DNA of 64,000 nucleotides, from positions 31,274 to 95,273 of the forward strand of contig CASDWJ010000025.1 in NCBI GenBank assembly GCA_949284695.1, in the 5' to 3' direction. Source of the stretch: an uncultured Christensenella sp. GTDB lineage: Bacteria > Bacillota > Clostridia > Christensenellales > UBA3700. Shown here piece after piece: positions 45,895 through 62,788 of the stretch. The translations under genes and the position numbers were made by a program. A model generated the notes under the pieces. That model searched no databases. It saw nothing but the letters and a program-made list of their open reading frames with translations, and was not told the origin of the DNA. Each line of letters begins with the position of its first letter. The first letter of the stretch is position 1.

Positions 45895-45924
45895 TTGTAA
45901 AACATACGGTTTACGTGATATGAT
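45895..45924 (+). promoter_or_regulatory. Probable promoter of the helicase gene
   Basis: TTGTAA (45895-45900), 18-base spacer, TATGAT (45919-45924). A moderate match to the sigma-A consensus. Confidence 0.5.
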
Positions 45925-45971
45925 TATAGCTGTAAAAAAGAATTCTGCGCGTAATGCGGAAGGAGCACAAT

Positions 45972-48900
45972 TTGGAAGAAGCAAAAAGGAATAAAGCGAT
46001 CGCCGTTCTTGACGCAATGAAGAAAAAATTGCTCGATCTCGGTGCAGGCAATCCTCTTATCAGTTTCAACAATAAGCGCAAAAACGTACTTTTCGTATAT
46101 TATCCGTCGCCCAAAGAATTGTTCAGGGAGTTCATGCTGGCGAAGAAATACAATGCCCGCGTCGTCGATCCGGACAGCGTCTCTGCTGCGACAAAGTCGA
46201 CGGGCATAGGCGACATTCTGCAGAATGCGGGGTCGTTGAGAGGGCAGATACTTCTTTACAATCCCAATCAGAAGACAAGCAGGGCGCTTGACAATCTCTA
46301 CAAAAAAGCCAAGGAGATGATGGACGAGAGAGGCTCGAAAGTGCTGTATTTCGCATTCGACTTCATCGTATGGAAGGACGAGGACGGAGAGCATCTGGCG
46401 CCGCTTCTGCTCGTACCCGCCGTGATAACGAAAGGCAAGGGAGGCAGGGAGTTTTTCGTCGGAGAATACGAGGACGAAGTGATAGTCAACCCGGCGTTCA
46501 GGCTCAAACTCAAGCGCGAGGGGATAGACCTCCCGGATTTCGAGAGCGGGACGGAATACGACGAATATCTGCTTGCCGTGTCAAAGGCGGTCAGCCCCGC
46601 AGGAATGAGACTTCTGAGAGAAACCGTGCTTGCAGTATTCTCGTATGAAAAGCTGTCGATGTACGAGGATATAGAAAAACACAAGGATGAGATGGCAGAG
46701 CACGAGGTGATAAGCTCTTTGCTCCTCGGTGGCGACATGCGCACGGTCACGCCTCCCGCGATAGATTACGACACGATCGTCGAGCACAACGTCGTAGACG
46801 CCGACTCGAGTCAGCTCGACGCGATAGGGTATGCGTTGTCTGGCAGGAGTTTTGTGTTGCAGGGACCTCCCGGTACGGGCAAATCGCAGACGATAACCAA
46901 TATGATAGCGGCGTTCCTCGAGCAGGGCAAGAGGGTGCTTTTCGTGTCCGAAAAGATGACCGCGCTCAAGGTCGTACAGAAAAAACTTGCAGAAGCGGGG
47001 CTTGGCGATTATTGTCTCGAACTGCACAGCAACAAGGCGAGCAAGAAGGAGTTCATCGCAGAGCTGCACAGGGTCGCGGGTCTCGCCGCAGAGAGGTCTG
47101 TCGCCGCAGAAGCGGCGCTGATAAGGACGGAGAGAAAGGCGGCGGAGGACAAACTCAACAGATACGGCAAAGAGCTCGCGAGGTTCATACCCGAGCTCAA
47201 CGTCACGGTGTTCGATCTGTTCGGCATTTATAGCGAGGTGCTCGGGTGCGCGGACGTCGACTTCTTTGTTTCAGAGATAGAGACAAAAGATTTCGGGAGC
47301 CTTCAGAAAGTACTCGACAAGCTGGGCGAATACGCATATTACTGCAGCGCGGGCGCAGACCCCGATTACAAGGCAAGCCCGTGGGCATGCCTCAGGGAAA
47401 GCGCGGTCGTCACGGATAAGATGGCGATACACTCGCTTCTCAGAGACGCCCGCGACGCGGCGCAGGCGCTGAACAAGGTTGCCTCGGAGCTCTCGCCTTA
47501 CGGCATTGTATTTACATACCGCGACGAAGACAGCGCGATACTCGACTTTGCCGACGCGGCGGCAGGTTGCAGGATAGAGGGAGGCGTAGCGTTCGAAGAA
47601 GCAAAACGCAAGGCGGCGATCGCCGCGATGGAAGAGTATCTGATCGTCAAGGCAGAAAACGACAAGTTGCGCGCGGAGACGGGCGCTATATTCGACGACG
47701 GGATCACTACGGTCGACGTCGACGCGATGGCGACGCGTTTTATCACGTACTCGGCATGGGACAGGATGTTCGACAAGCAATACAAAGCGGACAAGGCGAC
47801 GCTTGCGTTCTATACGAAACCGGGTCAGCCCAAGGCCAACTTCGCCACGCTCAGCCGTCGGCTGACGCTTCTCAGAAGGAGAAAGGAGTCGGATGCGAAA
47901 ACGGCGGCGGCAGAGGCAAAACTCTCCGCGCTCGGTCTCAAGGTCGCGGCGGCGGCAGAGATAGACGCGCTGAGACGTCTCGACGAGGTCATAACGCGCT
48001 ACGGCGTCGCAACGGACAAACTCGCCGCGCTTCTGCCGAGAGAACTCAAAGTCGCGCGTTCGGTATTCGCCGCCGGCGCAAAAGCGATAAGAAACAATAT
48101 GCCCGCGCTTGAAAAGGCGCTCGGGGGACTGGACGCTTATTTTGTCGATTTCGCGGACGCGCTGACAGATATCGCCACTATAGAAAAGAACGCCGCCGCT
48201 CTGTTGCCGATGACCGGGTTCGAGACCTACGTCGCAATGAGAGACATCGCGACGAAGCTCAGGGAGACCAACGACGACGGATTTATAGCGGACGCGGTGA
48301 GAAAGGGCGTTTCGCCCGATCAGTGGCAGGGCTGTTACAGGAAGTGCTTTATCTTCCAATGGGTGAAAAAGGTCGTCGACGAAAGTGCGGAACTCAGGGT
48401 GTTCGACGCAGGCGACCACAACGACCTCGTCAGACGGTTCTGCGACAAGGACGAGGAGACGCTCAGGGCGTCGAGGAGAGAAATACCTCAGAAGCTCAAC
48501 GCCAGGAGAGAGGGCGCTCCCGAGAGTCAGAGAATCGTACTCGAAAAGGAGGCGAACAAACCGAGGAGACAGATGCCGGTCAAAGAACTTCTTGAAAAGA
48601 TGACGGCGCTCATCCAGAAGCTCAAGCCGTGCTTTATGATGTCGCCGCTCAGCATAAGCACTTACTTCAAGGACGCGGCGATAGAATTCGACGTCGTCAT
48701 TTTCGACGAGGCTTCGCAGGTGCTCCCCGAGGACGCTCTGTGCGCGATCTTCAGAGGAAAACAGACGGTCATCGTCGGGGACTCCAGGCAGATGCCGCCG
48801 TGCGATATATTCTCGGTCAGCTCCGAAGAACCCGACGAGGACGAGAACGCCTCCGAAACCGTCGCAGAGTCCGACGAGTCGATCCTCGCGCTCGGAGCAA

Positions 48901-49919
48901 GGATAATGAACGATATTTGTCTTAAGTGGCACTACCGCAGCAGGAACGAGAGTCTTATAGCTTTCTCCAACGCGATGTTCTACGAAGGAAATCTGCAGAC
49001 TTTCCCGTCCAACGTCGTCAGCCGTCCCGACTGGGGAGTCGAGCACGTATACGTCGCGGACGGCGTATATGAGAACAACGTCAACATAAAAGAGGCAGAA
49101 AAGGTGGTCGATCTCGTCATAGAGCATATCGTGAAGTACCCCGAGAGGAGCCTCGGCGTGGTCGCGTTCGGTATCAAGCAGAGAGATCTTATCGAGGAAA
49201 GGCTGGGCGCGAGATTAGCCTCGCTTGCGGATCCCGCCGCAGTCGCTGCGGCAAGGACGTTTTTTGCAGACGACGTGTCTGAACCCTTCTTCATCAAAAA
49301 TCTCGAGACGGTGCAGGGAGACGAAAGAGACACGATCATCTTCAGCATGGGTTACGGCAAGGATCCCGCCGGCAAATTCTCGCACAACTTCGGTCTGCTC
49401 AACAGGGCGGGCGGAGAGAGAAGGCTCAACGTCGCGGTGACCAGAGCGAAATACAATATCAAGATGGTGACTTCCGTGCGCCCCGACGAGATAAGGGCGA
49501 GCAAGGATTCGTCGATGGGAGTGCAGATGCTCAAGGCATACGTGACCTACGCGGCAAACGGCGGCGTTATCGGAGTAAAGACGGGCAGCGGCGCGGGACT
49601 GATAAGAAGCGTGGAGGACGACATCTACGACTGCCTCGTCGCGGCGGGATATACTGTCGAAAGGAACGTCGGCGCTTCAAAATACAAGGTAGATCTTGCC
49701 GTCAAACGTCCGGGCACGGACGAATATGCCGTGGCGATAGAATGCGACGGCAAGGAGTATCAGGATTCGGACAGCGCGAGGGACCGCGACAGACTGAGGA
49801 CGGCGGTGCTCGTATCCATGGGCTGGAAGGTGTACAGGATCTGGTCTCCGCAGTGGATAAAGAGCAGGGACGAAGAAAAATGCAGACTGCTCAATTTCGT
49901 GCAGTTCGCGATAAAATAA
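45972..49919 (+). CDS. DUF4011 - SF1 helicase - Vsr-like nuclease (Hhe-type defence protein)
   Basis: 1,315 residues from a TTG at 45972 placed 6 bases after AAGGAG; an ATG at 45954 is in frame but has no ribosome binding site. Residues ~1-200 are a DUF4011-type domain (LLDLGAGNPLISFNNKRKN, FALDFIVW-like core). The SF1 helicase follows: Walker A GPPGTGKS (298-305), a ~550-residue helical insert, Walker B FDEASQVLPED (D912), then GDSRQMPP, WHYRSRNESL and ETVQGDERDTIIFS. The last ~100 residues form a PD-(D/E)xK nuclease of the Vsr/MTES_1575 kind (D1241, E1257-C-D-G-K). The same architecture is known as a single-gene antiphage system (Hhe). Here it sits beside a TerY-P-like triad. Confidence 0.88.
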   Translation: MEEAKRNKAIAVLDAMKKKLLDLGAGNPLISFNNKRKNVLFVYYPSPKELFREFMLAKKYNARVVDPDSVSAATKSTGIGDILQNAGSLRGQILLYNPNQKTSRALDNLYKKAKEMMDERGSKVLYFAFDFIVWKDEDGEHLAPLLLVPAVITKGKGGREFFVGEYEDEVIVNPAFRLKLKREGIDLPDFESGTEYDEYLLAVSKAVSPAGMRLLRETVLAVFSYEKLSMYEDIEKHKDEMAEHEVISSLLLGGDMRTVTPPAIDYDTIVEHNVVDADSSQLDAIGYALSGRSFVLQGPPGTGKSQTITNMIAAFLEQGKRVLFVSEKMTALKVVQKKLAEAGLGDYCLELHSNKASKKEFIAELHRVAGLAAERSVAAEAALIRTERKAAEDKLNRYGKELARFIPELNVTVFDLFGIYSEVLGCADVDFFVSEIETKDFGSLQKVLDKLGEYAYYCSAGADPDYKASPWACLRESAVVTDKMAIHSLLRDARDAAQALNKVASELSPYGIVFTYRDEDSAILDFADAAAGCRIEGGVAFEEAKRKAAIAAMEEYLIVKAENDKLRAETGAIFDDGITTVDVDAMATRFITYSAWDRMFDKQYKADKATLAFYTKPGQPKANFATLSRRLTLLRRRKESDAKTAAAEAKLSALGLKVAAAAEIDALRRLDEVITRYGVATDKLAALLPRELKVARSVFAAGAKAIRNNMPALEKALGGLDAYFVDFADALTDIATIEKNAAALLPMTGFETYVAMRDIATKLRETNDDGFIADAVRKGVSPDQWQGCYRKCFIFQWVKKVVDESAELRVFDAGDHNDLVRRFCDKDEETLRASRREIPQKLNARREGAPESQRIVLEKEANKPRRQMPVKELLEKMTALIQKLKPCFMMSPLSISTYFKDAAIEFDVVIFDEASQVLPEDALCAIFRGKQTVIVGDSRQMPPCDIFSVSSEEPDEDENASETVAESDESILALGARIMNDICLKWHYRSRNESLIAFSNAMFYEGNLQTFPSNVVSRPDWGVEHVYVADGVYENNVNIKEAEKVVDLVIEHIVKYPERSLGVVAFGIKQRDLIEERLGARLASLADPAAVAAARTFFADDVSEPFFIKNLETVQGDERDTIIFSMGYGKDPAGKFSHNFGLLNRAGGERRLNVAVTRAKYNIKMVTSVRPDEIRASKDSSMGVQMLKAYVTYAANGGVIGVKTGSGAGLIRSVEDDIYDCLVAAGYTVERNVGASKYKVDLAVKRPGTDEYAVAIECDGKEYQDSDSARDRDRLRTAVLVSMGWKVYRIWSPQWIKSRDEEKCRLLNFVQFAIK

Positions 49920-49944
49920 CGCGGTCCCGAGCCGCTTTAAAAAC

Positions 49945-49982
49945 CGACCGTATTGACAACGGTCGGCACTTTATTGTAAAAT
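49945..49982 (+). promoter_or_regulatory. Hairpin overlapping a promoter, upstream of the RyR pair
   Basis: A perfect 8-bp dyad, CCGACCGT/ACGGTCGG (~49944-49967), follows the helicase gene. It overlaps TTGACA (49953-49958), which with an 18-base spacer leads to TAAAAT (49977-49982). It may serve both as weak terminator for the helicase and as operator-covered promoter for the next operon. Confidence 0.6.
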
Positions 49983-50052
49983 AAAACTGTTGTATACCAC
50001 GCGTCGTTGCACATGCGCGCAAAAGGCGCAGTCAGGCATAAGGATTCAGATC

Positions 50053-51480
50053 ATGAAAAGACTCAACGATTCAAAAAAGGACGTCTCTCAGACGACGTTT
50101 CTCGTCCGCGGCGCCGCTCGGGCGCGCGCCTGCGCAAAGAGGTTGTCTGCGCTCGGCGACAAAGAACGCGAGAGGGCGCTTGTCGTCTGCGACGCAGCGG
50201 CTGAAAAGGAACGGGCTTTTGACTGTTTCGGCGAATACGCGCCCGAAAGGGTAACGTTCGGACAGGCGGCGGCGATCGCGCTTCTGTGGAAATATCCGCC
50301 CGCGCTTTTTCTCGGGAAAAAGGCTTTCGATCCCGAGGACGGCACGCTGAAAGGCGAAGTAAGACCCGTCGTCGCTTTTTTCGGCTTCGACGAGACTGTC
50401 GGGGAGATATTCAAGGCGCTCGTCTCAACCTTTGTCGCAACTGAGAAAAAGGGAGGAGAGATATGCGAAAGGCGCATACCGGTCCGCTTTTTCGCAAGGG
50501 GCAGGCAGAGAGAGCAGATCGGGGAGACTCCTTATTCGGACGCGGCGAAAAGGTTGCGCGAATGCGGAGAAAACAAAGACGCTTATTACGAACTTCCCGT
50601 GCTTCCGTACGACGCGGCAACGGTCAAGACGACAGACGCGCGAGCGGTCGCGTCGCTTGCCGGGGAGAGCACTTTCGTGTGGGCGGTCGTCGCGCACGGC
50701 AATCGCGAGAGAGCGGGAAAGATCGCTTCGATGCTGGCAGACAACGGGACAGAAGGTCGCGTGTTCTACGCGGCGAAAGACGGAGAGGAGAGTTTTAACG
50801 GCGCGATCGGCTTCGACGCGGGAGCGCGGTGCGCGGAATTTTTCCTTCTTGCGGAGAAGATGGCGTACGTCAGAAATCTCGTTTACGACGCAGAGGCGGC
50901 AAAAGGCGGGGAAAGCTATGCAAAAGCGCTCGACGAAGCCAGAACAAAATGGAAAAGATTGGCGTGCGACAAGGTGGGCAGGATCAAGAGAGATTCCAAT
51001 CTGTACGCGGCGGTGGCGATAAGACAGATACTTTTGTCGGTCGGTTTTGACTGCGCAGAGAGCGGAGAGGACGCAAAAGATGAGTTCGACGCTATATACG
51101 ACGCGGGCAATCCGCGTGTCAGAGACGGCAACGGGGTCATAGTTTACGACAACGCGACCTGCGCGAGAAAGAGCCTGAGAACGGCGCTTGCCGTCAGAGA
51201 GCACGTCAGATGGAACGCGTATATGCTCGCTTCGGGCGTGAGCCCCGCGACTAAGGAAGAATACCGCACTGTCAACAAGAATGTTTTGCTCGGCGCGGGC
51301 AGACATATCAATCTGACTACCTGGAAGGGTCTTGAAGACTTCAGAAAGGAAGAAGCGCGGGCAAAAGGTACCGACGAGGAAAGCACGGATGTGCAGAGAT
51401 ACGATTTTCAGCTTGCGGACGAAGCGGCGTTCATACTTGAAAACAGCGGCTTCGGGATAGTGCGGGCGAGGAGTTGCTGA
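50053..51480 (+). CDS. Soluble Rossmann-like protein with C-terminal RyR domain
   Basis: 475 residues from the ATG at 50053 (AAGGA upstream). Residues ~10-140 and ~200-260 look like Rossmann-type alpha/beta units (TTFLVRGAARARACAKRLSA; FVWAVVAHGNRERAGKIASM). Residues ~375-475 fit the prokaryotic RyR (ryanodine-receptor repeat) domain: REHVRWNAYM (E383-W387), RHINLTTWKGLEDFR and the closing QLADEAAFILENSGFGI. In bacteria RyR domains occur in predicted nucleotide-signalling and conflict systems, often with TrkA-N/RCK folds. It ends one base before the start of the channel-like gene, whose C terminus also carries a RyR domain, so the two products probably work together. No catalytic motif is evident. 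Confidence 0.75.
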   Translation: MKRLNDSKKDVSQTTFLVRGAARARACAKRLSALGDKERERALVVCDAAAEKERAFDCFGEYAPERVTFGQAAAIALLWKYPPALFLGKKAFDPEDGTLKGEVRPVVAFFGFDETVGEIFKALVSTFVATEKKGGEICERRIPVRFFARGRQREQIGETPYSDAAKRLRECGENKDAYYELPVLPYDAATVKTTDARAVASLAGESTFVWAVVAHGNRERAGKIASMLADNGTEGRVFYAAKDGEESFNGAIGFDAGARCAEFFLLAEKMAYVRNLVYDAEAAKGGESYAKALDEARTKWKRLACDKVGRIKRDSNLYAAVAIRQILLSVGFDCAESGEDAKDEFDAIYDAGNPRVRDGNGVIVYDNATCARKSLRTALAVREHVRWNAYMLASGVSPATKEEYRTVNKNVLLGAGRHINLTTWKGLEDFRKEEARAKGTDEESTDVQRYDFQLADEAAFILENSGFGIVRARSC

Positions 51481-51481
51481 T

Positions 51482-54400
51482 ATGCCGATATTTTTATATT
51501 TTCTTGCGATAGCCGCAACCGTAGGGCTTTGTTTTGTCGATTCGTCCAATATGAGCGTCGCCGCTCATGCGGTCGCTCTCGGCGTCGTCAGAGGGATTTT
51601 GCTGGTCGCCGTGTTTTACGTCGCGGCAATATGGCTTTACTTCAGACTCAGAAAAAACTGGCAGAAAAGGTACGCGGCAGAAATTGTCGTGATAGGCATC
51701 GTAGTCGTATTCAGCGTGGTCGGCAAGATGCTGATATCTTATTTCAACGAAGTTGGCAGCATGACTTTCGTCGACGTTCCTCGCGACGCATGGGACAACA
51801 CGGCGAAGTTCTATTATTCGGTTTATCAGGCGTTCGGCGGCATTTCTTTCGAAGGACTTGCGAAATACGAGCTGTACGAGACCTGGCGTACGATGATATA
51901 TGCGGGCGGATCGCTTCTTGCGGGCGCTGTCGCGATCAGCATACTTACTTTCAGTATCAGTTACGAGATATACAGCTTTTTTTCCTGGAAGAGTTTCCGC
52001 GGCAGAAAAAGGGCGAAGATATATATCTTTACCGCCGTTACCGAGGACGCGGTCACGCTGGCGCACAGCATAGACGAATACAATAAAAAATTAAAGAAAG
52101 AGCAGACTTTCGCAAAGAGACTCGATGACGAGATAAGTATCGCTTCGTGCAAAGCGGGGTGGGAAAAAGTAAGATATCTCACTTATGCCGAAGCGGCGGA
52201 CAAGTTCTGCCCCGTGGACGGCGATACAGGGGGAGAGGGAAAGAGCAGACCGTTCAATACGGTTGCTTTCGCTTACTGGGCGGCAAGAGCGGTCGTATCG
52301 TTCTTTGCTTATCTGCCGCTGTGGTTGCGTGCCTTTTTACGGTTTTTCAGACGCAATAAACACATAATAGTTTTTCTGAGAACGGAAGGAGAAGAAGGCT
52401 TCGACGCCAAGAACGCGCTCCATGCCGACATAATGCACTCGGGTTTTCTCTTTACGAGTTACAATCCCGGCAAGAAAAACAAGTCGATCGCAAAATTCCT
52501 TCACATAAAGTCGAACAACGATCTGCCCGTCAGAATCATAGCGTTGAGAGAAGCGCTCGAGGGATGCGGGGAGAAAGATCCTCATAAGCCTGTTTATCAA
52601 AATATGATAAATCAGCTTGAAAAAGAATACAGAGAAAGACTCAGACGGGACGAGATGGGAGAAGTGAGGATATTCGCTCTCGACTGGGAAAAGGACAAGA
52701 CGAGCGTCAACGACAGCATAGTTACAGAGGATATTGCAAGAGTCGCGAGGGAAACTTTCGGTCGTGGTGGCTTTTTGCAGAAGATGAAGCGTCGCGACTT
52801 TGTCAAGGAAGTTGAGAAAAAACAATATGCGGTAGCGGATAAGATCGTCAAAGAACTTGACCTTCTGGTCCTCAGATGCGACAAAAGGACTCTCGGAGAG
52901 ATAAAGAGATCGCTCCCGACAGACAGGGAAAAAGCGTTTTCCATGATAAGAAAACTCACCGCAAACGAGAAGATCTTCAATATCGTCGCAGAGATCGCAG
53001 AAGGAGAATATCTCGGCATCGAAAATTGTATAAAGCAGGCGATGGGCTATCTGTTCTTCACCGAGACCGTGATAAATTATCACTATCTTCTCAGCGAAGA
53101 GATAGATCTGTCCAACGTGGATATGCGCTTTGACAACGAGATCGCAAAATTCAGGGACAAGGAATGCGTAGCAGGTAAGCGCGTCGATTTTCTTGCGATC
53201 GCGGGCAACGAGGCGTATGACAATATAGGCGGCAGGAAAGACGGAGAATATGCGCCGTTTTACAAAAATTTCAAACGTCATTTCAGGCTCAACGCGCTCA
53301 ACGAAGCCAATATGGCGGCTATGCTGTACGTGAAGGCGAAAGGAGAACTCGTCAGGAGTTGCCCCGATCTTTACAGAGACGAAGTGGAAGGCAAAGAATA
53401 CAAGGCGATGGTCATCGGCTTCGGTCTCAACGGTCAGCAGACGCTCAAGGCGGCGTATATATTCTCCGCTGCGGGTAAATTTGCTCAGCAGAACGGCTTG
53501 TTTATACCCGACGGCTCCGATTGGTTGACACTGTTGAGGAATTCTCCGCTGGCGGATTATACAACTCAGCCTTTCAATGCCGACGTCTACGACAAGAATG
53601 CCGCAGAGCTCGGCGGACTGTTCAAGATGAAGAATCCGTCGTTTTATGTTGAATTGCCGTCCGACAGAGAGCGCACCGTAAACGAAGCCCTTTCTGAAGA
53701 TATAAAATCGAAGCGCAAAAAGAATCTGTATCCGTACGCTCCCGTTACGGTAAGACTGTATCAGGAGTCGGCATACAGCGATTCTATACTCAGAATGCTT
53801 GATAGGAACCTCGGCGAAGAAAAGAGCGATTACGATCTGATCGTCATCGCGCTCGGCGACGACGACAGCAACGTCAGCATTGCCAATGCCCTGCTCGAGG
53901 ACTACAAACACGAGTTCGTTCCGATAGGAAAGAAAAAGAACGGCAAACGGCAGGTGTTCGCCGTCAATCTGCGCGATAAGCTCAATTACGACCGCGTCAA
54001 CTGGTGCAGAAAAGACGAGGAGGATTATCCCGGTCTCGAAGTCGTTATCTACGGCGCCGCCGAGGATATGTACAGCTATGAAAATATCGTCGATCAGACC
54101 GCGGCGAAGATATGGAACAGCGGTTATGCGGCGATACAGGGCGACAACGGCAAAAAGCTGGAAAACGACATCCTGCACGTCCTGAAAGGCGAGCAAAAAG
54201 TGACCGCGGCAAGTTACGTCGACAGGATATTGCAAGAGCCCGAAGACGTAATGAATATGGAGATCCGCTGGATGAACGCCGCGTCCAACAGAATGTACAA
54301 TATGACTTCGAGCAAATACGCTTCGTATTTCAGCCCGTTCGCGGCAGAATATTGCAGGATAGTCGAAGCAAAGTATACGGGCAGGAAGGTCGTCGATCTG

Positions 54401-54634: not shown

Positions 54635-54681
54635 ACAGCATTCGGTTTTCGGAAGCATAAATATCATCACAGAGGAAGAAC

Positions 54682-57600
54682 ATGAAAATTATATTCAGAT
54701 TGGAAAAAGTCAGAGACGGCAAGATCGAGGACGTCTTTATCGACGCGGCGCATTTTATCAAAGACGTGCTCGATTCGTTCGATATCAACGTGGAGAAGGA
54801 CGGGACTGTCGTATGCGAATCGGACGAACTCGATATTGTCTCTAAAGAACAAGCGGATAAGATAATACAATATTTCGACGATCTTCAAATAAGCGCGGAC
54901 ATACAATGCGTTTATACGGATCAGGAGCGGAAAGCTCTGGAAAGGTCGGGGGGAGCTGACAGAGACTTTTTCCGCTCTAAGGGAAAAAAGAAAGAAGAAA
55001 GTGCAGAGGTAAAAGACGAAGACCCCGATAAAGACGACGAGGGGATAGACATTACGACATTGCTCAAGAAATGGAAGAAAGAAGAAGAGGGCAGGCAGAA
55101 AGGCGCCGACGGTAAGAGTGCGCAGCCTGAAAAAGAAAAACTCACCTTCGGGCAGAAACAGCAGAATATCGCTTTGCTCAAGGCAGCTTTGCTTGACAAG
55201 GTAAAAGGACAACAACACGCGGTGGACGCGTTCGTCAGGGCGTATTTCGGCGCCGAGACCCTTGTGGCGAAAGAGCACAAAGGGCCTCTCGCCACGTTTT
55301 TGTTCGCGGGACCTCCGGGATGCGGCAAGACCTATCTTTCGGAATGTGCGGCAGAATTTATCAAGGACAGGAAGTTCGCAAGATTCGATATGTCGGAGTA
55401 CAGCGAGTATGGCGCAAGCGTCAACAGCGGTCCGATAATGTCGTTTATTGCAGGCAATCCCGACGGGATCCTGCTTTTTGACGAGATAGAAAAGGCATCG
55501 ATGAGCAATCTCAAAATGTTCTTGCAGATACTCGACGCAGGGTCTATAAGGACCTATATGGGAGATGAAGTGAGCTTTAAGAACGCTATACTCATATTTA
55601 CCACCAACGTCGCGAAAAATCTGTACGACGAAGAAGCAAGCGGCAATCTGTCGGGAGTAAGCAAGAGTACTATAATATCCGCGCTCGAAAGCGATATAAA
55701 TCCCATGAACGGTAAGCCGTACTTTCCCAGAGAACTCGTATCGAGGTGGGCGAAAGGCACCGTCGTGCTTTTCAACAGGCTGGAGCCGTACGCGCTCAAG
55801 GAGATCGTGCTCAAGGAGCTTGAAAACAGACTGGCTACGGCAAAAGAGAATACGGGACTTCAGATAGAGTGCGATAACGACATAATAGCTTCTCTGATAA
55901 TGTATTCTGCGGGAGGAGCCGCCGACGCGCGTACCATGGTCGGCGAAGTGATGAGGTTTGTCGAAAGCGAACTTTTCGATGCGGTAAGTCAGTTGACGCG
56001 CAGAAATATGAATGTCGACGCGCTGAAAAAGGTGTATATCGACGTCGATTACCGCAAACCTCAGGTAAGAGATCTGTTCGAACAGACGGGAAAACTTCCC
56101 GTTCTGTTTGCGGCGGAGCAGGGCTATGTCAGAGAGATCAGACGCGTAGAAGGCAGACAAGGAAAAATAAAGGTGATGCCAGGCAAAGATCTCGCCTCGG
56201 TCATATCGTGTTGCGACGGCGAAGTGGGCGCGGTCGTGCTCGACGTGTTGCTCAAAGAGAAAAACCCGGGAGACAGACCCAGCGACCTTGAGGACGTCAA
56301 TTCCGCAGGCGTGGATATATTCGAATATCTGACAGGCAATCATCCCGATATACCCGTGTACATACTCAACGACGAGGAGAGAGGTTTTGAAGACGCCGAG
56401 TTAGATTCCTTCCTTGCGAGGGGAGCGAAAGGCATTATGCATTTCAGAAAGGGCGACGACGCTTATATCGCCAAACAGATTGAGTTTATAAGGAACTCGA
56501 CCGTCACGGGCAACAGTTTTTACAAGATGGCGAAGGCAAGTTACGTGCTCCGCTACAACTGCGCTCAGCAGATAGAAGAAGACGGGGCGGCGATACGCAT
56601 AAGCGTGCGCAGACTTGAGAAAAAACGCGCCGTGCGGGCAGACGACGTGAACAGCTTAGTCGCCGACGTCAGCAGACCCAGGATAAAGTTCGCCGACGTG
56701 GTCGGGGCGACCGATGTGAAAAACGCGATGAAAGCCTGCGTCGACTATCTTCTCAATCCCAAGAAGTTTGCGGGCAGCGGGTTGAAATCGCCCAAGGGCA
56801 TATTGCTGTACGGACCTCCCGGCACGGGCAAGACCATGCTTGCAAAGGCTCTCGCAGGAGAAACTGACGTTGCGTTTATCGAGAAGAACGGCACCGAATT
56901 CTTTAAGAAATACGTCGGAGAGGGACCTGAGTCGATCAGAAGAATGTTCAGTACGGCGAGAAAATACGCGCCTGCGATAATTTTCATTGACGAGGTCGAC
57001 GCGTTCGCGAAAAAGAGGATCGGATCGGAGTTTACTCATTACAGCGAACAGCTCCTCACTACCTTTCTGTCCGAAATGGACGGTTTCAAAAGCAATCCCG
57101 ACAAGCCCGTGATACTCGTTTGCGCGACGAATTACTCGATCAAGGACGGAGATCCCGGTTCGGGAAAAGCAGGAGCGCTCGATCCGGCGTTTGTCAGACG
57201 ATTTGACAGGAAGATACTCGTAGGATTGCCCGAGCTTGACGACAGACGCGCTCTGATACGTCATTTTCTGAGACTGTGCGGCGCAGACGTCGCCGCGCTC
57301 GAAAAGGGAATAGACGTTCTCGCCAAGAAGTCGGAAGGATACAACAACGACGCGCTGAGACAGCTTATAGAAAACCTCGTCAAGGAGAAAGGGGTAAAGA
57401 ACGTCACCGTCAAGGATCTCGAGGAGGCATATGACGGAGAGACTTGCGGCAAAGAAAGACAACGCTCGGATAAGGCAAGGCTCCGCACCGCAAGGCACGA
57501 AACGGGACACGCCATAGTCTCGTGGGCGTGCGGCATAGTCCCGTCTTACGTGACGATAATCTCGCGCGGCGACTACGGCGGTTATATGATGAGTTACGAG

Positions 57601-58008
57601 GAAGAACGCGGCATCCGGAAATCCGATATGTTCGACGGGATATGCATTTCTCTCGGCGGCAGGGCGGCAGAACTCGTATATTACGGCAAAGAAGACGGGT
57701 TGAGCGCAGGACCTTCGGAGGATCTCCGTTCGGCGACCCGACTTGCCGCGAATATCGTGGGAAACTTCGGTATGACCGAAGGAAGGCTTGCCGTTGCCGA
57801 CGACTTCGGAGACGAGGTGGCGAAAGAAGTTTACGACGAGGCAAACGCGATACTCCTTGCGCAGTGCGACCGTGCGGTCGGAATAGTGACCGGATACAGA
57901 GACGCCGCCGACAAACTGGTCGAAGCGCTCATGCAATACAACAGCATAGACGGGAAGGAGATAACCGACATTCTCGGTCAACCGCCGTGTCGGGTCGACG
58001 AAGTCTGA
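54682..58008 (+). CDS. Soluble double-AAA+ protease: ClpB-like AAA, receiver-like linker, FtsH-like AAA and M41 peptidase
   Basis: 1,108 residues, ribosome binding site AGAGGAAG. Residues 1-75 are a small alpha/beta domain of unknown type. Residues ~155-460 are a ClpA/ClpB D2-type AAA+ module (Walker A GPPGCGKT 210-217, Walker B LLFDE 267-268). Residues ~465-640 resemble a degenerate receiver domain: a strand ending in D521, then DIFEYLTGNHPDIPVYIL, but no acidic pocket. Residues ~660-900 are an FtsH-type AAA+ (GPPGTGKT 711-718, D770-E771, RRFDRKI). Residues ~925-1108 are an M41 zinc peptidase with HETGH at 939-943 and the third-ligand region PSEDLRSAT. No membrane helix or N-terminal FtsH domain exists. 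It should be an ATP-driven cytoplasmic unfoldase-protease; this domain combination is not one I know. Confidence 0.85.
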   Translation: MKIIFRLEKVRDGKIEDVFIDAAHFIKDVLDSFDINVEKDGTVVCESDELDIVSKEQADKIIQYFDDLQISADIQCVYTDQERKALERSGGADRDFFRSKGKKKEESAEVKDEDPDKDDEGIDITTLLKKWKKEEEGRQKGADGKSAQPEKEKLTFGQKQQNIALLKAALLDKVKGQQHAVDAFVRAYFGAETLVAKEHKGPLATFLFAGPPGCGKTYLSECAAEFIKDRKFARFDMSEYSEYGASVNSGPIMSFIAGNPDGILLFDEIEKASMSNLKMFLQILDAGSIRTYMGDEVSFKNAILIFTTNVAKNLYDEEASGNLSGVSKSTIISALESDINPMNGKPYFPRELVSRWAKGTVVLFNRLEPYALKEIVLKELENRLATAKENTGLQIECDNDIIASLIMYSAGGAADARTMVGEVMRFVESELFDAVSQLTRRNMNVDALKKVYIDVDYRKPQVRDLFEQTGKLPVLFAAEQGYVREIRRVEGRQGKIKVMPGKDLASVISCCDGEVGAVVLDVLLKEKNPGDRPSDLEDVNSAGVDIFEYLTGNHPDIPVYILNDEERGFEDAELDSFLARGAKGIMHFRKGDDAYIAKQIEFIRNSTVTGNSFYKMAKASYVLRYNCAQQIEEDGAAIRISVRRLEKKRAVRADDVNSLVADVSRPRIKFADVVGATDVKNAMKACVDYLLNPKKFAGSGLKSPKGILLYGPPGTGKTMLAKALAGETDVAFIEKNGTEFFKKYVGEGPESIRRMFSTARKYAPAIIFIDEVDAFAKKRIGSEFTHYSEQLLTTFLSEMDGFKSNPDKPVILVCATNYSIKDGDPGSGKAGALDPAFVRRFDRKILVGLPELDDRRALIRHFLRLCGADVAALEKGIDVLAKKSEGYNNDALRQLIENLVKEKGVKNVTVKDLEEAYDGETCGKERQRSDKARLRTARHETGHAIVSWACGIVPSYVTIISRGDYGGYMMSYEEERGIRKSDMFDGICISLGGRAAELVYYGKEDGLSAGPSEDLRSATRLAANIVGNFGMTEGRLAVADDFGDEVAKEVYDEANAILLAQCDRAVGIVTGYRDAADKLVEALMQYNSIDGKEITDILGQPPCRVDEV

Positions 58009-58126
58009 GCGCACGTCGCGATACGGTCTCCGAAGGCGGAGAACGAACGCCGCAAGCAGTTTTGAGTAAGATAACTCCGACTGTGTAAACTGTTTGTAAA
58101 AACTGTTGATTATAACATAAAAAGTA

Positions 58127-58156
58127 TTGACATCGTATATCTCAAGGTGATAATAT
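58127..58156 (+). promoter_or_regulatory. Upstream promoter of the VWA-phosphatase-kinase unit
   Basis: TTGACA (58127-58132), 18-base spacer, TAATAT (58151-58156). A perfect 7-bp dyad lies just downstream, over the expected start of transcription. Confidence 0.65.
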
Positions 58157-58168
58157 TGCTTTAGCAAA

Positions 58169-58185
58169 GGCAAGGATACCTTGCC
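58169..58185 (+). promoter_or_regulatory. Perfect dyad GGCAAGG-ATA-CCTTGCC
   Basis: A 7-bp inverted repeat with a 3-base centre sits 12 bases after the -10 box of the upstream promoter, a typical repressor position. It could instead form a 5' mRNA hairpin. No T-run follows, so it is not a terminator. Confidence 0.55.
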
Positions 58186-58268
58186 GCTCCCGCGGTGAAC
58201 GGGCATTTTATCGGAGATAAGAAGATGTAGAGAGGAACCTTTCGTGAAGCAAAAAATCAATAGTGATA

Positions 58269-58297
58269 TTGACAACGCTACGTTGTAATGTTATAAT
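58269..58297 (+). promoter_or_regulatory. Consensus proximal promoter of the VWA gene
   Basis: Perfect TTGACA (58269-58274), 17-base spacer, perfect TATAAT (58292-58297), giving a short leader before the ATG at 58330 with AAGGAGG. Two promoters therefore drive the triad in addition to any read-through from the protease gene. Confidence 0.85.
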
Positions 58298-58329
58298 TAT
58301 TTCATAAGTTTGCGACAAAGGAGGAATTT

Positions 58330-59031
58330 ATGGTCGAAACAAAAGAATATTGCGTCGATATAGTTTTTTGTATTGACGTTACGGGAAGCATGTCCCCTAT
58401 AATCGATAAAGTAAAGCAGTGTGCGCTCGATTTTTATGTTGACACGAAGAAAGAGCTCGATGCGGCGGGCAAGACGGTCAGCCAGCTCAGAGTCAAGGTC
58501 ATCACGTTCAGAGATTTCGGTTGCGACGGCGCGGGAGCGATGGATCAGTCGAGATTCTTCATTCTCGACGACGAAAAGGCAGATTTTGAGTCTTACGTCG
58601 CCGGCATAACCGTATCGGGCGGCGGCGATCCCCCGGAGAACGCTCTCGAGGCAATCGTCGAAGCTATCAGAAGCGACTGGACTCTCGAGGGTCTCAAAAG
58701 GCGTCAGATCATCGTTGTATTTACCGACGCTCCTGCGCTCAATCTCGGTGAGAGAGCTTCTGCTCCCAACTATCCCTTCGAGATGCCCGCTACGCTCGAC
58801 GACCTCGAGCTGATGTGGCTGGGTAACGAGCCTTATGGCGCTACTTCTTACGACCCCGAGGCGGCGAGACTCGTTCTCTTCGCGCCCAACGTCGAGCCGT
58901 GGACTACCATCGTGTCGAGATTTGACAGAAAATGGTACAACGAAGTCGACAGCGGCAAGGGCCTCAAGGATATTGAGATGAAACAGGTCATTGACCTTAT
59001 CGTGCGCTCGATCGCGGCAGTAAGGCAGTAA
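58330..59031 (+). CDS. TerY-like von Willebrand factor A domain protein
   Basis: 233 residues, a single VWA domain. The metal-binding (MIDAS) site is D16-V-T18-G-S20 (a DxTxS variant of DxSxS), with a second Thr/Asp region in VSGGGDPPENAL and D133 in VVFTDAPAL. It is cytoplasmic, with no signal peptide or membrane helix. It lies directly upstream of a PP2C phosphatase and a Ser/Thr kinase, the order of the TerY-P triad described as an antiphage system. VWA partners of this kind usually serve as protein-binding or phospho-regulated adaptors; it may link the kinase and phosphatase to the neighbouring AAA+ protease. Confidence 0.88.
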   Translation: MVETKEYCVDIVFCIDVTGSMSPIIDKVKQCALDFYVDTKKELDAAGKTVSQLRVKVITFRDFGCDGAGAMDQSRFFILDDEKADFESYVAGITVSGGGDPPENALEAIVEAIRSDWTLEGLKRRQIIVVFTDAPALNLGERASAPNYPFEMPATLDDLELMWLGNEPYGATSYDPEAARLVLFAPNVEPWTTIVSRFDRKWYNEVDSGKGLKDIEMKQVIDLIVRSIAAVRQ

Positions 59032-59049
59032 AAAAGCATCGTATAGCTG

Positions 59050-59081
59050 CAGAGCCGTCACAACAGACGGCTCTGTTTGTT
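59050..59081 (+). terminator. Terminator-like hairpin between the VWA and phosphatase genes
   Basis: A perfect 10-bp stem (CAGAGCCGTC 59050-59059 with GACGGCTCTG 59066-59075) is followed by TTTGTT. It begins ~20 bases after the VWA stop and ends 13 bases before the phosphatase ATG. It is probably a partial terminator that lowers phosphatase and kinase expression relative to VWA. Confidence 0.6.
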
Positions 59082-59094
59082 AAATGGAGAGACA

Positions 59095-60789
59095 ATGAAG
59101 ATCACGGTAAACGTACAGAGAAAGAACAAGCAAGGATATTATATCGGAGAGGACGCCGTTCCTTACGCCGCGGACGATATGGTCATAGTTGCAGACGGTC
59201 TCGGAGGAATGGGCGGCTTTGTTCACGAGGAGATGGATCAGGCGTTTTTCGACGAGGAAAAGGGCGTCGGCATGTTGCTGTCTGTCTTTCCGGACGCGGC
59301 AAAAGACGGATTGGTCGCAGAATATGTGAGGAAGGCTTTTTCCGATATATTTGAAGAAAAAAGGCCGAGAGAGAGCGCATATTTCGCGTCCCGTTTTGCC
59401 GTTACCGCAATGCTTTACGCGATAAAAGAGGCAAAGATCTTCGGCGTTGAAAAGTTTTTGTATCCGCAGACGGAATCCGACGATCAGCTCGCAGACGCTA
59501 TCGCGGAATATCTTATCGGGACGATGTCCAAACTCGCGGGTGCGATCGGTCTCGACGCAAAACTCATAAGCCCAAACCAGTATTTTTTGCCCACTACGCT
59601 GACGATGGCGGTCTTCGGCAAAAGAGAGGACGGCAAACTCGACGTGGTCACGCTCAACGCGGGAGACTCGCGCACCTATTGCTGGAGCGGCGAGGGGCTC
59701 AGAGTTCTGACTCGCGACGACGTCTCGGAGTCAACGGCGGTCATGAACAATCTCGTCTGTCTGTCGGTCAGGTTTTCGTTGAATATCAGGCGCTTTGTCA
59801 TAGACGTGCCCTGCGCGATATTCTCGGCTTCTGACGGAGTGCACGATTCAATGGCTTTCCAGAGCAAACTCTACTTCGAGTCTACGCTGTGCGGACTTAT
59901 TGCGGAGTGCGGAGAGAAAAAGAGTTCCGCCGTGCAGCAGAAGTCGGGAAAAGACGAAGTTGATCAGGGCGTTATGCCGTCGCAGATACCCGCAGGAGAA
60001 GAAGTCGCAGACAGGCAGAAGCCTTTGCAGGACGTCGCTCAGTCGGCGTGCGTCGACGAAGAACAGAAAAAGGCAGACGCGTGCGCGGCGCATATCGCAG
60101 AGGCGTATCTGCAAAAATACGGCTGTCACGACGACGGCAACACGATCGCGATGGCGTTGATCGGGTTCAGGGATTTTGAGGATTTTGTCGATACGGCAGA
60201 AAAGAGACTGGCAAAGATCAGATCCGCTCATCAGGAGTGGGATAAATATATAGGTTACAGAGCCGTGCTTCGCAAAATGGAGAGTGCGATCAACAGGTCA
60301 ATGCTCGTGAATCTGTTAAATAATTACGGCGACAAGATCGCGCGCGTGTCGTCGGAAGCGACGGGCGGAGCAGATCAGAGCGCGGCGAGAAAAGCAAAGA
60401 ACAGCTGTCTGAAGGATTTCGGCATCGTGGAGTCGGAAGATCGGGTCCTGTCTTTTGAGCAACTCGTCGAGAGTATGATGCTTTGCGCATATGCGGACTA
60501 TACGCCGGCGGAGCTTCCCTCGGGGTTCCTCTCTTACGATGAAATAAAGAAGCGCAGCAACATGCGGGCGGTCAGCAATTATTGGTACCGGAACGGCGCC
60601 CGTCTCGTATGCGAGAGCATAGCAAAAGTAGGCACAGGCGCGGCGCTCGATTTCGATATGAGTTCTCTGATCCTTCCCAAGATGGAAGAGGAGATCAGGG
60701 ACGTGTACGGGAATGCATACAAAGTTTACAGCGAACTCAGCGAAATGATGAGTTCATACGACAAAAAATACGGAGAACTGATAAAATAA
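59095..60789 (+). CDS. PP2C-family serine/threonine phosphatase of the TerY-P-like triad
   Basis: 564 residues from the ATG at 59095 (GGAGA upstream; TTG at 59077 less likely). The PP2C motifs are in order: GEDA (21-24), VADGLGGMGG (D34), NAGDSRTYCW (D191), SASDGVHD (D247) and HDDGNTIAMAL (D346-D347). These are the metal-binding acidic residues of an active Mn/Mg-dependent phosphatase. A ~90-residue low-complexity insert lies between the SDG and DDGN motifs. The C-terminal ~200 residues are helical and not recognisable, perhaps a binding module for the kinase or VWA partner. The kinase gene starts 10 bases after its stop. Confidence 0.88.
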   Translation: MKITVNVQRKNKQGYYIGEDAVPYAADDMVIVADGLGGMGGFVHEEMDQAFFDEEKGVGMLLSVFPDAAKDGLVAEYVRKAFSDIFEEKRPRESAYFASRFAVTAMLYAIKEAKIFGVEKFLYPQTESDDQLADAIAEYLIGTMSKLAGAIGLDAKLISPNQYFLPTTLTMAVFGKREDGKLDVVTLNAGDSRTYCWSGEGLRVLTRDDVSESTAVMNNLVCLSVRFSLNIRRFVIDVPCAIFSASDGVHDSMAFQSKLYFESTLCGLIAECGEKKSSAVQQKSGKDEVDQGVMPSQIPAGEEVADRQKPLQDVAQSACVDEEQKKADACAAHIAEAYLQKYGCHDDGNTIAMALIGFRDFEDFVDTAEKRLAKIRSAHQEWDKYIGYRAVLRKMESAINRSMLVNLLNNYGDKIARVSSEATGGADQSAARKAKNSCLKDFGIVESEDRVLSFEQLVESMMLCAYADYTPAELPSGFLSYDEIKKRSNMRAVSNYWYRNGARLVCESIAKVGTGAALDFDMSSLILPKMEEEIRDVYGNAYKVYSELSEMMSSYDKKYGELIK

Positions 60790-60799
60790 GGGGAAGTAG

Positions 60800-62515
60800 A
60801 TGGATATCAACGGTTATATTGTAAAAGCATGGTCCAACGCGACGAGCGGAGAAGTTGCGATATGCGAAAAAGACGGCAAACAGTACTTTCTGAAAAGATA
60901 CAACGTTGCCATGAAGCCGCACGACGGTTGTTCTCCGAAACTCAAGGCGATCAAAGAAAAAGATTTCAACAGATTCGTCGACAGACGCAAGCTGATCAAT
61001 AAAACCATAGCCGCTATCGGAGATCCTTCGGTCGTTGCGGTAGTGGATACGTTCGTGCACGACAACATGTTCGTCGAAGTCAACGAATTTCTGACCGGCA
61101 TCATGGACGTTTCGCAGGTCTCGAGACTTCCCGTTGCGGTAAAGATCGAGGCTATGAAGTCGGCTTTCCGCGCTATGGCGCTGCTGCACGCGGCAACGCT
61201 GATACATTCAGATATAAAACCCGCCAATCTGCCTTTTGTCAGAGAAGGCTCAGTCGTGTCCGCAAGGATAATCGACTTCGACAACAGCTATATGCTGTCA
61301 GAAAAAGGTACCGTCAAAGCCATAGGCGGCGACAACTATTTCGTCGCGCCGGAAGCGCAGACCGCGGGGCCTGCGGGCAGTCCGGGCAGAGACAAACTGG
61401 GGCTTAATTCCGACGTGTTTTCGCTTGCGCTGACGTTGTACGAATATTTTACAGGCAAAAAGCTGGACACCGGCGTGCCGGGAGTGACAGAACCGTGGCA
61501 GGTGATTGTTGCGGGCAAAACTCTCAAGGTGGGGAGCGAGATACCCGAGCCTCTTAGAAGCATTCTGGAAAAGATGCTCGCACCCGAGGCTTGCGACAGG
61601 ATCTCGGCGCGCGAAGCGTACGACATTATGTGCGGCGCGTCGTCCTTGCCCTCGGCAAGCGCTTCTTCGACGGCGGCTGCGCCTTCCGCTCCCAAAGCGG
61701 CTCCTGCGGCTCCCTCGGCTTCTGCGAGTGCGGCAAAGGGAAGCGGCAAGCTCGTTGATCCCGACGACGGTCTGCCTTTTGACATGCCTTGGCGCGAGGA
61801 CGGTATAGAATTTGTGCCCGAAGGCTTCTCCTTAAGAGGGTTTGTCACGGCGGTGAGGAAGATGGATTCCGCTTCCCGCGAGCGTTACTACAAGGTAGAG
61901 ACGGTGAGAGGTTTCAGCCGTCATCTGAAGAAAGAACAGCTCATCGCTCTCGGCTGTGCGAGACCCGCAGCGTCTGCGGCGGCGACGCCCGTAAAGACGG
62001 AGTCGCCCGCAACAACCGTTGCAAAGCCTGTCTCAAAACCCGATGATAAAGGCGCAACTCCGATCGTTGCAACACCCGCGACGCATTGCGAAGTATGCGA
62101 GCCGTGGGAAGGAGACCCGATAGAGTTCGACGTCGCCGCATTGACGGGCTTAGGATTTGTAAGAGTGGAAAGAAACAATGCCGAAAGAAGGGATTACAAA
62201 CTCATCTACGGCAAGAACTATTCGGTAAAAAGCTCAAAGAAGTGCGTTGAGGAAGGATATGCAAAAGAGGTTGTCCTCGCTCCTCCGCACGGTTCGGCTG
62301 TAAAAGACTGCGGAGAAAACGTGCTTTGGGAAGGCGACAAGGGCACGATAGACCCTGAGGTCGTCAAAAGACTTTCGATCATCAGGATAATACGTTGTGA
62401 AGTCGACGGCAAAAAACGTTACAGAATAGAAGCCGAAAAGACATCCGATTATTACAATCCCGAGGCGGTACTCGATTACGGCAGTCTTAAAATGCTCGGC
62501 ATAATAAAAGACTGA
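60800..62515 (+). CDS. Serine/threonine protein kinase of the TerY-P-like triad
   Basis: 571 residues, ribosome binding site AGGGGAAG. Residues ~1-280 form a Hanks-type kinase: ATP-anchoring K32 (QYFLKRY), catalytic HSD loop H136-S-D138 with K140 and N143 (HSDIKPANL; HSD replaces HRD), and DFD at 159-161 in place of DFG. All three key residues (K32, D138, D159) are kept, so activity is expected. An Ala/Ser/Pro linker (~285-315) is followed by three related modules (~315-390, ~430-490, ~495-571), each beginning with a short W/acidic segment (MPWREDGIEF, CEPWEGDPIEF, NVLWEGDKGTI). There is no membrane helix. It probably phosphorylates triad or protease partners; the substrate is unknown. Confidence 0.9.
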   Translation: MDINGYIVKAWSNATSGEVAICEKDGKQYFLKRYNVAMKPHDGCSPKLKAIKEKDFNRFVDRRKLINKTIAAIGDPSVVAVVDTFVHDNMFVEVNEFLTGIMDVSQVSRLPVAVKIEAMKSAFRAMALLHAATLIHSDIKPANLPFVREGSVVSARIIDFDNSYMLSEKGTVKAIGGDNYFVAPEAQTAGPAGSPGRDKLGLNSDVFSLALTLYEYFTGKKLDTGVPGVTEPWQVIVAGKTLKVGSEIPEPLRSILEKMLAPEACDRISAREAYDIMCGASSLPSASASSTAAAPSAPKAAPAAPSASASAAKGSGKLVDPDDGLPFDMPWREDGIEFVPEGFSLRGFVTAVRKMDSASRERYYKVETVRGFSRHLKKEQLIALGCARPAASAAATPVKTESPATTVAKPVSKPDDKGATPIVATPATHCEVCEPWEGDPIEFDVAALTGLGFVRVERNNAERRDYKLIYGKNYSVKSSKKCVEEGYAKEVVLAPPHGSAVKDCGENVLWEGDKGTIDPEVVKRLSIIRIIRCEVDGKKRYRIEAEKTSDYYNPEAVLDYGSLKMLGIIKD

Positions 62516-62538
62516 CAGAGAAAAAAGCCAGAAACAAA

Positions 62539-62573
62539 CCGCTCCCGTGTTTTCCGGGGGCGGTCGGGTTTTT
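62539..62573 (+). terminator. Intrinsic terminator of the triad
   Basis: CCGCTCCCG pairs with CGGGGGCGG (one G-U), followed by a short GC stretch and five T. Confidence 0.75.
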
Positions 62574-62697: not shown

Positions 62698-62788
62698 GCA
62701 GAGATGGCTGAGCTGGCCTAAGGCGCACGATTGGAAATCGTGTGTACGGTAACACGTACCGAGGGTTCGAATCCCTCTCTCTGCGCCA
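62698..62788 (+). tRNA. tRNA-Ser (anticodon GGA)
   Basis: 91 bases including encoded CCA. The acceptor stem GCAGAGA pairs with TCTCTGC, the discriminator is G, the anticodon loop TTGGAAA gives GGA (reads UCC/UCU), there is a long variable arm typical of Ser, and a T-loop GGTTCGAATCC. It marks the right end of the defence-like cluster and is a common integration target for mobile elements. Confidence 0.97.

Follow-up and report, generated by a model that had tools for sequence, protein, structure and literature searches.

Is a run of seven neighbouring genes in a Christensenella genome a single device, and what might such a device do? The genes lie between positions 45,895 and 62,573 of a stretch of 64,000 nucleotides (hereafter the window) of contig CASDWJ010000025.1 (assembly GCA_949284695.1, uncultured Christensenella sp.). 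They encode, in this order, a helicase-nuclease, two proteins with ryanodine receptor (RyR)-like domains termed here RyrA and RyrB, a protease with two AAA+ modules, and a triad made of a VWA protein, a PP2C phosphatase and a Ser/Thr kinase. An earlier reading made from the sequence only had taken these seven consecutive plus-strand genes, all of which are indeed present as open reading frames (ORFs), for one functional unit. Sequence comparison supports the view that the combination is not accidental, because its order recurs in two relatives and because neighbourhoods of RyrB with VWA genes or triads occur in other genera and families. We propose, with a probability of about 0.4, that the cassette encodes a channel effector gated by an ADP-ribose-type signal, under the control of a protease and a phospho-switch, and probably defensive.

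Gene order and co-occurrence of the cassette

Compared genomes are designated by G numbers, G000 being the genome of the window, and fetched loci by L numbers. G168, a genome of the same genus, carries all seven genes in identical order (L043), with identities to the window of 46% for the helicase, 43% for RyrA, 38 to 54% by segment for RyrB, 58% for the protease, 62% for the VWA protein, 39% for the PP2C and 40% for the kinase, whereas the five near left-flank genes are 79 to 94% identical between the two genomes. A contig of a metagenome-assembled genome from an uncultured Christensenellaceae (L007) reads ryrA-ryrB-protease-VWA-VWA-PP2C-kinase-tRNA-Ser, its 6/6 visible genes following the order of the window with an extra VWA gene; this contig starts 182 bp before ryrA and the helicase was left out of the L007 comparison. 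The order is thus conserved in close relatives, on which the earlier reading had made its proposal depend. Two other genomes carry subsets at the same site, 3' of the genes for the nitroreductase, the zinc-ribbon protein and the CitMHS transporter: in G285 (L041), ryrA-ryrB-protease is followed by the tRNA-Ser 110 bp further on, and in G294 (L042), ryrB-protease is followed by a 621-aa zinc-ribbon gene and then by the tRNA-Ser on the other strand; no VWA match was found in either genome. Of the five loci in this comparison, all have ryrB-protease, four have ryrA and three have the triad, and the helicase is found in two of the four judgeable ones. G080 has ryrA-ryrB on another contig with the protease not nearby, and G275, which gave no RyrB match, has other ORFs 3' of the transporter.

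The borders of the site recur as well. The transporter also adjoins the cassette in G168, G285 and G294 and was matched in all six genomes searched for it (own genome and five congeners), and the tRNA-Ser predicted at the right border, a tRNA-Ser(GGA) 3' of the kinase gene, has a counterpart next to the cassette in L007, L041 and L042; in G168, the stretches L043 and L103 showed no tRNA beside the cassette. Between these borders, comparison of the window with G168, G285 or G294 gives only 38 to 62% identity for the cassette proteins, whereas the genes flanking them closely (two ABC genes, nitroreductase, zinc-ribbon, CitMHS) keep 72 to 95% in the same three comparisons; two genes further left are less conserved (65% and 50% in G294). 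The cassette has the look of a signalling device that evolves rapidly and may be antiviral.

The seven genes do not behave as an indivisible unit. G285 and G294 have subsets at this very site, and separate promoter-like sites precede separate blocks, leading us to reject a single operon or obligate unit of seven and to set aside the functional unit proposed earlier, together with its even spacing (the gaps are ~133, 1, 47, 321, 63 and 10 bp). Because each block has its own promoter-like site (Table 1), there are probably three transcription units: the helicase, ryrA-ryrB-protease and VWA-PP2C-kinase. The promoter scan was made by consensus matching only and gave 26 promoter-like sites, shuffled sequences giving 11.1. 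By eye, each of the five loci compared shows a TTGACA-N-TAAAAT site 5' of ryrA (for G294, of ryrB), and a sequence resembling the helicase site occurs upstream of the helicase in L043; the sigma-70 site of vwa, with its palindrome ACAACGnTACGTTGT, is kept in the window and in L007.

The partnerships were then counted in 297 genomes of the order, drawn evenly from a larger group and including G000. RyrB was counted in 27 of them by single-sequence search (the RyrB profile gives 37, the extra ten having partial matches only and being left out of the counts), the two-AAA M41 protease in 17 (hand-counted matches spanning both AAA modules; any protease match at 1e-60 gives 36 genomes) and the VWA protein in 24 (profile matches with E up to 1e-15, the VWAs of L045 being left out of the profile). 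RyrB and VWA occur together in 13 genomes for 2.2 expected (p=1.7e-9), and RyrB and protease in 11 for 1.6 expected (p=3.6e-9); at the level of the 125 genera, the values are p=1e-9 and p=1.4e-5, respectively, and all these statistics ignore kinship. Within 12 kb, RyrB and VWA are found in 7 of the 13 genomes (expected 0.24) and RyrB and protease in 5 of the 11 (expected 0.17). The seven RyrB-VWA adjacencies are those of G000 and G168, which share a genus, and of G005, G174, G189, G279 and G296, and the five with the protease are in G000, G168, G285, G294 and G296. Beyond the genus of the window, two cases carry the link to the protease, namely G296 and a shorter relative of RyrB (71.7 bits) encoded 3' of the protease gene in G012 (L072). 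In G296, which belongs to another family, the protease, a TIR-NACHT protein, ryrB, two VWAs, a kinase and a PP2C stand together.

RyrB genomes are also rich in TIR genes. A TIR_2 match was found in 26/27 of them and in 41/80 genomes from the same families without RyrB (p=7e-6), this negative set being hand-picked from listed genomes rather than random and mostly helicase-positive (70/80). Within genera, permutation (24 versus 22 genomes) gave p=0.0006 for the presence and p=0.018 for the counts of TIR genes. Helicase presence was considered as a control for defence richness and rejected, since the comparison is meaningless with a negative set that is mostly helicase-positive. TIR genes lie beside ryrB in G288 and G296 and, in G174, 2 kb from the VWA gene.

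RyR proteins, protease and triad

As a single sequence, RyrB matches the Pfam RyR family (PF02026) with E=0.023 and 15.4 bits, under the gathering cut-off of 27.4, the best score among the scanned relatives being 26.0 bits (L048, E=1.1e-5). RyrA gave no RyR match in the single-sequence Pfam scan, and no Pfam, NCBIfam or PADLOC model matched either protein above threshold. A profile built from 26 members of the 28 RyrB loci (the contig-cut ORFs of L061 and L063 were omitted) matched in the PDB the RyR1 chimera 6UHI (1.4e-15), the bacterial RyR protein 3NRT (3.7e-7) and 35TM (1.7e-4). The profile of the eight RyrA found no RyR structure up to E=1; hence, the RyR domain of RyrA rests on the EHxRW...H...D pattern common to 8/8 RyrA. 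The RyrA and RyrB profiles match each other (98.7%, E=2e-16) over the cytosolic Rossmann part only, and this link, together with the lack of a hydrophobic segment in the RyrA of the window, makes RyrA look like a soluble paralogue of the channel-like RyrB; an N-terminal membrane part is kept in its relatives L048 and L051. The two RyR proteins of the earlier reading therefore stand, RyrB by profile homology and RyrA by pattern and kinship to RyrB.

The RyR domains keep residues of a nucleotide-binding site. According to the available part of the preprint on RyDEP, a phage RyR protein, H75, W78, H100 and D117 contact the ADP-ribose ligand, and six of eight tested phage homologues bind, none cutting apart from RyDEP itself (PMC13232231). 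Their counterparts in RyrB are H989, W992, H1014 and D1029. All four are present in 23/26 RyrB and 8/8 RyrA, and W, the second H and D in 26/26 RyrB. The H989-W992-H1014 spacing is identical to that of H75-W78-H100 and aligns with 35TM, an entry described as 'Ryr domain-containing protein' in which the spacing of the residues agrees with RyDEP apart from an offset of one residue, suggesting that 35TM may be the RyDEP structure.

The membrane part of RyrB consists of hydrophobic segments at residues 1-19, 32-50, 68-86 and 139-157, some relatives showing fewer than four at the threshold used, with a stretch IGGLxFEGL conserved among RyrB between segments 3 and 4; a GFGLNG motif follows at residue 646. 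These features suggest, by sequence, a channel with a possibly RCK-like cytosolic part. The family seems confined to the order at E up to 1e-40, the profile having matched only the own genome among 371 class-wide genomes, some of the same order. No RyrB was found in plasmids, in phages or, using six peptide patterns, in viral contigs. In G085 (L046:6736-10689), the RyrB ORF runs on into an M20-type peptidase domain, either a fusion or an assembly artefact.

The protease is the chimeric AAA+/M41 enzyme that had been proposed: it matches AAA_2, AAA and M41 in Pfam, carries two Walker A/B pairs, HETGH and a third M41-type motif, and belongs to the M41 family by its AAA module and its M41 domain with HExxH. 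Against the NCBIfam FtsH model it scores 302 bits, not reaching the cut-off of 600, and it has no N-terminal hydrophobic segment, one weak segment lying at 506-524. Between its AAA modules, the protease was suspected to contain a receiver-like domain; this could not be confirmed, the best Pfam match being OKR_DC_1_N (E=0.1) and the only PDB match one globin chain (E=0.12). At E up to 1e-60, the protease matched four plasmid records over 40% of the query each; FtsH is the annotation of three of them, and the fourth has none. The own genome encodes a second double-AAA M41 protease (G000:C35:28727-31609, L008) with 39% identity, in a stretch with no RyrB or triad match. In G262 (L062:11628-13043), a single-AAA protein with a weak M41 match under the cut-off lies near RyrB and is perhaps the protease partner in minimal form. 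In G128 (L047:5813-8221 and 8007-9302), genes for a ThiF (E1-like) protein and an AAA_2-type ATPase lie downstream of RyrB.

The VWA-PP2C-kinase triad had been called a TerY-P triad. The three components are adjacent with intact motifs, as that name implies; neither a zinc ribbon nor an oligonucleotide/oligosaccharide-binding (OB) fold was detected in the kinase, and PADLOC gave no TerY-type match, so that the likeness covers part of the description only. The PP2C had no Pfam match and a weak NCBIfam one to Stp1 (E=1.7e-5), and shows the motifs DGLGG, GDSR, SDG and HDD; the kinase has HSDIKPAN and DFD. Its C-terminus carries three tandem repeats starting W-E/R-x-D (residues ~330-571), and its C-terminal 288 aa gave no Pfam match up to E=1, a result that still allows for an undetected OB-fold. 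The VWA protein and PP2C had no PADLOC match up to E=10, and the kinase matched mad6, PD-T4-6, MkoA and C3a189 kinases (up to E=0.001), none of them TerY-named. Since 15 of the 20 VWA loci fetched hold a complete triad with no RyrB match in the stretch, the triad is also a free-standing module. No VWA was found in viral contigs and no PP2C in plasmids. G168 has a second triad on a contig other than that of its RyR cassette (L081, G168:C3:1-14000); it includes three VWAs in tandem and is followed, 1.5 kb downstream, by a TerD gene.

The helicase matches DUF4011, AAA_11/12 and the MTES_1575 nuclease in Pfam, and PDC-S37 (1,057 bits) and Hhe (517) in PADLOC. Its description as Hhe-type agrees with this architecture and with the PADLOC match, and falls short at NCBIfam, where both Hhe (721 bits, cut-off 2,000) and ProA (993, cut-off 1,500) stay under their cut-offs. 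The family has matches in at least 128 of the 297 genomes (E up to 1e-40, two candidates scored per genome), and yet among the fetched RyrB loci the profile matched only those of the window and G168. We rejected the helicase as a core member on the basis of these fetched loci rather than of the order-wide match count. The search for co-occurrence that the earlier reading had called for thus gave a divided answer: RyrB is found with VWA and protease above expectation, the helicase is mostly elsewhere and the triad also stands alone. Away from the cassette, the window contains an ORF of at least 6,360 aa running past its start (positions 1-19083), perhaps a surface protein, of which 4,999 aa were scanned with YDG domain matches only, and an ORF of 1,877 aa (27578-33211) with Listeria-Bacteroides repeats and BspA-type leucine-rich repeats.

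Table 1. Positions, in the window, of the cassette genes, their borders and the nearby regulatory-like sites.
Feature	Position	Strand	Description	Basis
CitMHS-type transporter	44312-45712	+	Left border, outside cassette	Pfam CitMHS 1.3e-25
Promoter-like site, helicase	45895-45924	+	9/12 matches, TG before -10	
Helicase	45954-49919	+	DUF4011, superfamily 1 helicase (AAA_11/12), MTES_1575 nuclease; accessory neighbour	Pfam, PADLOC, NCBIfam
Terminator-like hairpin	49944-49966		Overlaps promoter-like site of ryrA-ryrB-protease unit	
Promoter-like site, ryrA-ryrB-protease unit	49953-49982	+	TTGACA-18-TAAAAT	
RyrA	ORF 49990-51480; likely start ATG 50053	+	Soluble, Rossmann-like, with C-terminal RyR-like domain (~51151-51429)	Start preferred from promoter and ribosome-binding site position and homologues
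RyrB	51482-54634	+	Predicted channel; C-terminal RyR domain (~54404-54616)	
RyrB hydrophobic segments (four) and P-loop-like stretch	51482-51952	+	Followed by Rossmann-like domains	
Protease	54682-58008	+	AAA_2 (ClpB-type), then AAA (FtsH-type), M41 zinc protease HETGH	
Second promoter-like site upstream of vwa	58127-58154	+	11/12 matches; similar in L007 (by eye)	
Sigma-70 promoter-like site, VWA-PP2C-kinase unit	58269-58297	+	12/12, TG before -10	
VWA gene	58330-59031	+	TerY-like, DVTGS of metal ion-dependent adhesion site type	Pfam VWA_4 6e-11
PP2C	ORF 59077-60789; ATG 59095	+	Phosphatase with long C-terminal extension	NCBIfam Stp1 1.7e-5 and motifs
Kinase	60800-62515	+	Ser/Thr kinase, three C-terminal W-E/R-x-D repeats	Pfam Pkinase 8.3e-19
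Terminator-like hairpin	62538-62564	+	3' of kinase gene	
tRNA-Ser(GGA)	62698-62788	+	Right border	

A possible mechanism and its rivals

We propose a model in which ryrA-ryrB-protease would form the core. RyrB would be a plasma-membrane ion channel of P-loop type, with a cytosolic Rossmann (RCK-like) ring carrying the RyR domains, and RyrA would probably join this ring. The RyR domains may bind an ADP-ribose-type nucleotide (ADP-ribose, or 2'- or 3'-cyclic ADP-ribose [cADPR]), which would most likely be made in trans by TIR NAD hydrolases of the same cell. Ligand binding would open the channel, resulting in the collapse of ion gradients and in the arrest or death of the infected cell. The soluble ClpB/FtsH-like double-ring protease could check or reset the channel by degrading RyrA/RyrB or an inhibitor, and the separately transcribed VWA-PP2C-kinase module, where present, would fix the threshold through phosphorylation of the core components. 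Upstream, the helicase-nuclease may be an independent defence gene sharing the site. The evidence for this mechanism is anatomical and statistical, consisting of gene content, conserved order, a common site, promoter-like sites, intact catalytic motifs, the kept RyR ligand residues and the co-occurrence counts. In its full form, i.e., an immune device of a new class in bacteria, with a RyrB-RyrA channel that answers TIR-made cADPR-type signals, a protease check, kinase-phosphatase-VWA tuning and a prokaryotic version of ryanodine receptor-like nucleotide gating, the model is doubtful. TIR-NACHT and TIR-TPR proteins are encoded directly beside RyrB genes in G296 (L045:4419-8219) and G288 (L050:11181-14876), respectively, and these are candidate producer-channel pairs.

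Several observations weigh against a signal-gated defensive channel. The window cassette has no TIR gene, and none of the ten TIR_2 matches of its genome is on its contig; TIR lies within ~10 kb of RyrB in 3 of the 29 genomes searched for ~1 expected (a hand estimate), so that the neighbourhood of TIR and RyrB does not clearly exceed chance expectation, and defence-rich genomes could be the source of the TIR correlation. A K replaces the first H in the RyrB of L045, L047 and L053, no potassium-type selectivity filter was seen in RyrB, only a motif points to an RCK domain (the best Pfam match, TrkA_N in the single member L062, has E=0.096), and the AlphaFold models, made from two-sequence alignments, were unusable (predicted local distance difference test of 33 for RyrB and 40 for RyrA). 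The partners are not constant either: 14/27 RyrB genomes have no VWA match, the VWA is located elsewhere in 6 of the 13 genomes having both, and protease and RyrB are on different contigs in 6 of the 11 having both. Moreover, RyR domains can act as hydrolases or sponges besides sensors, and some RyrB copies have TerD or a P-type ATPase nearby, which suggests ion stress instead.

Ion or metal stress is the main rival, which we hold to be unlikely. The cassette would then be a Ter-like system in which a TerY-type triad acts as the sensor of metal or envelope stress, a cation channel of RyR/RCK type is regulated by phosphorylation and the protease removes damaged complexes, phages having no special role. 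This fits the TerD gene between triad and ryrB in G279 (L055, Pfam), its BLAST-cluster mate at the same position in G174 (L066), the P-type cation ATPase beside VWA-ryrB in G005 (L059, Pfam) with a cluster mate in G180 (L099), and the description of TerY-P triads as hypothetical metal-sensing switches in the part of PMC11090510 available. However, the genome of the window, one of six searched, has no TerD match, the TerD of G168 is at the separate second triad, away from the cassette, the cassette genes diverge much faster than their near neighbours, and RyrB correlates with TIR genes while its RyR domain keeps nucleotide ligand residues. Equally improbable in our view is a defence-island pile-up, in which helicase, RyR/protease core and triad would be three independent modules of one hotspot that do not act together. 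The separate promoter-like sites, the subsets in G285 and G294, the rarity of the helicase beside RyrB and the many triads without RyrB all speak for it, and for the helicase-nuclease, a neighbour of the core, it is the likelier reading; yet RyrB-VWA adjacency recurs outside the site in five genomes, and G296 again unites protease, ryrB, two VWAs, kinase and PP2C in another family. Much less probable is a signal sink, in which the RyR domains of RyrA and RyrB would hydrolyse or sponge cADPR and so restrain host TIR systems (autoimmunity control), the membrane part being an anchor. The catalytic pair of RyDEP, H75/D117, has counterparts in 8/8 RyrA and 23/26 RyrB, phage homologues do bind, and RyrB genomes are rich in TIR genes, but a sponge has no need of a four-segment membrane domain, a conserved P-loop-like motif and tandem Rossmann-like domains, and the first H is lost in three RyrB copies, one of which (L045) is beside a TIR gene.

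Should the signal-gated channel prove true, RyrB would be a compact bacterial channel keeping the RyDEP ligand residues, in which cADPR binding and gating are directly testable, and protein phosphorylation, regulated proteolysis and nucleotide signalling would be joined in one bacterial cassette. Whether ryanodine receptors are a direct target of cADPR is a long-standing question. It is raised by the RyDEP preprint too, in the part available (PMC13232231).

Comparison with known systems

A partial literature search found no paper joining RyR channels with TerY-type triad or protease modules, and bacterial RyR channels may have been mentioned earlier; for RyR domains with TerY, TIR, RCK or defence, the same partial search gave PMC13232231 as the sole fitting paper, PMC7016017 treating, in its accessible part, eukaryotic RyRs. 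The helicase of the window matches PDC-S37 and ProA over most of its length. With the TerY-P triad, as far as described in the part of PMC11090510 available, the cassette shares the same three adjacent components with intact motifs; it differs by the repeats that end its kinase in place of a detectable zinc ribbon or OB-fold, and by the link of the triad to an RyR channel and a protease. The MoxR-vWA-FtsH ternary conflict systems, as presented in the accessible part of PMC7159879, likewise combine a vWA protein with a two-AAA protein of which one AAA is FtsH-type, whereas the cassette has no MoxR gene and includes a PP2C and a kinase, and its protease has a ClpB-type first AAA with intact Walker motifs and its M41 domain after the second AAA. 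Thoeris, which pairs a TIR producer of cADPR with an effector, would share the predicted ADP-ribose-type signal, and TIR genes lie near ryrB in three relatives; the cassette itself is without a TIR gene, and its effector would be an RyR channel rather than a SIR2-SLOG or macro-domain protein. Animal RyRs are giant calcium channels with an architecture unlike that of RyrB. RyDEP and the R12/RyR family (PF02026; R12 of animal RyRs, bacterial 3NRT) have, like RyrB, an RyR domain with H, W, H and D. RyDEP, however, is a small phage protein, whereas the RyR domain here ends the membrane channel-like RyrB and, by motif, RyrA, in a chromosomal cassette.

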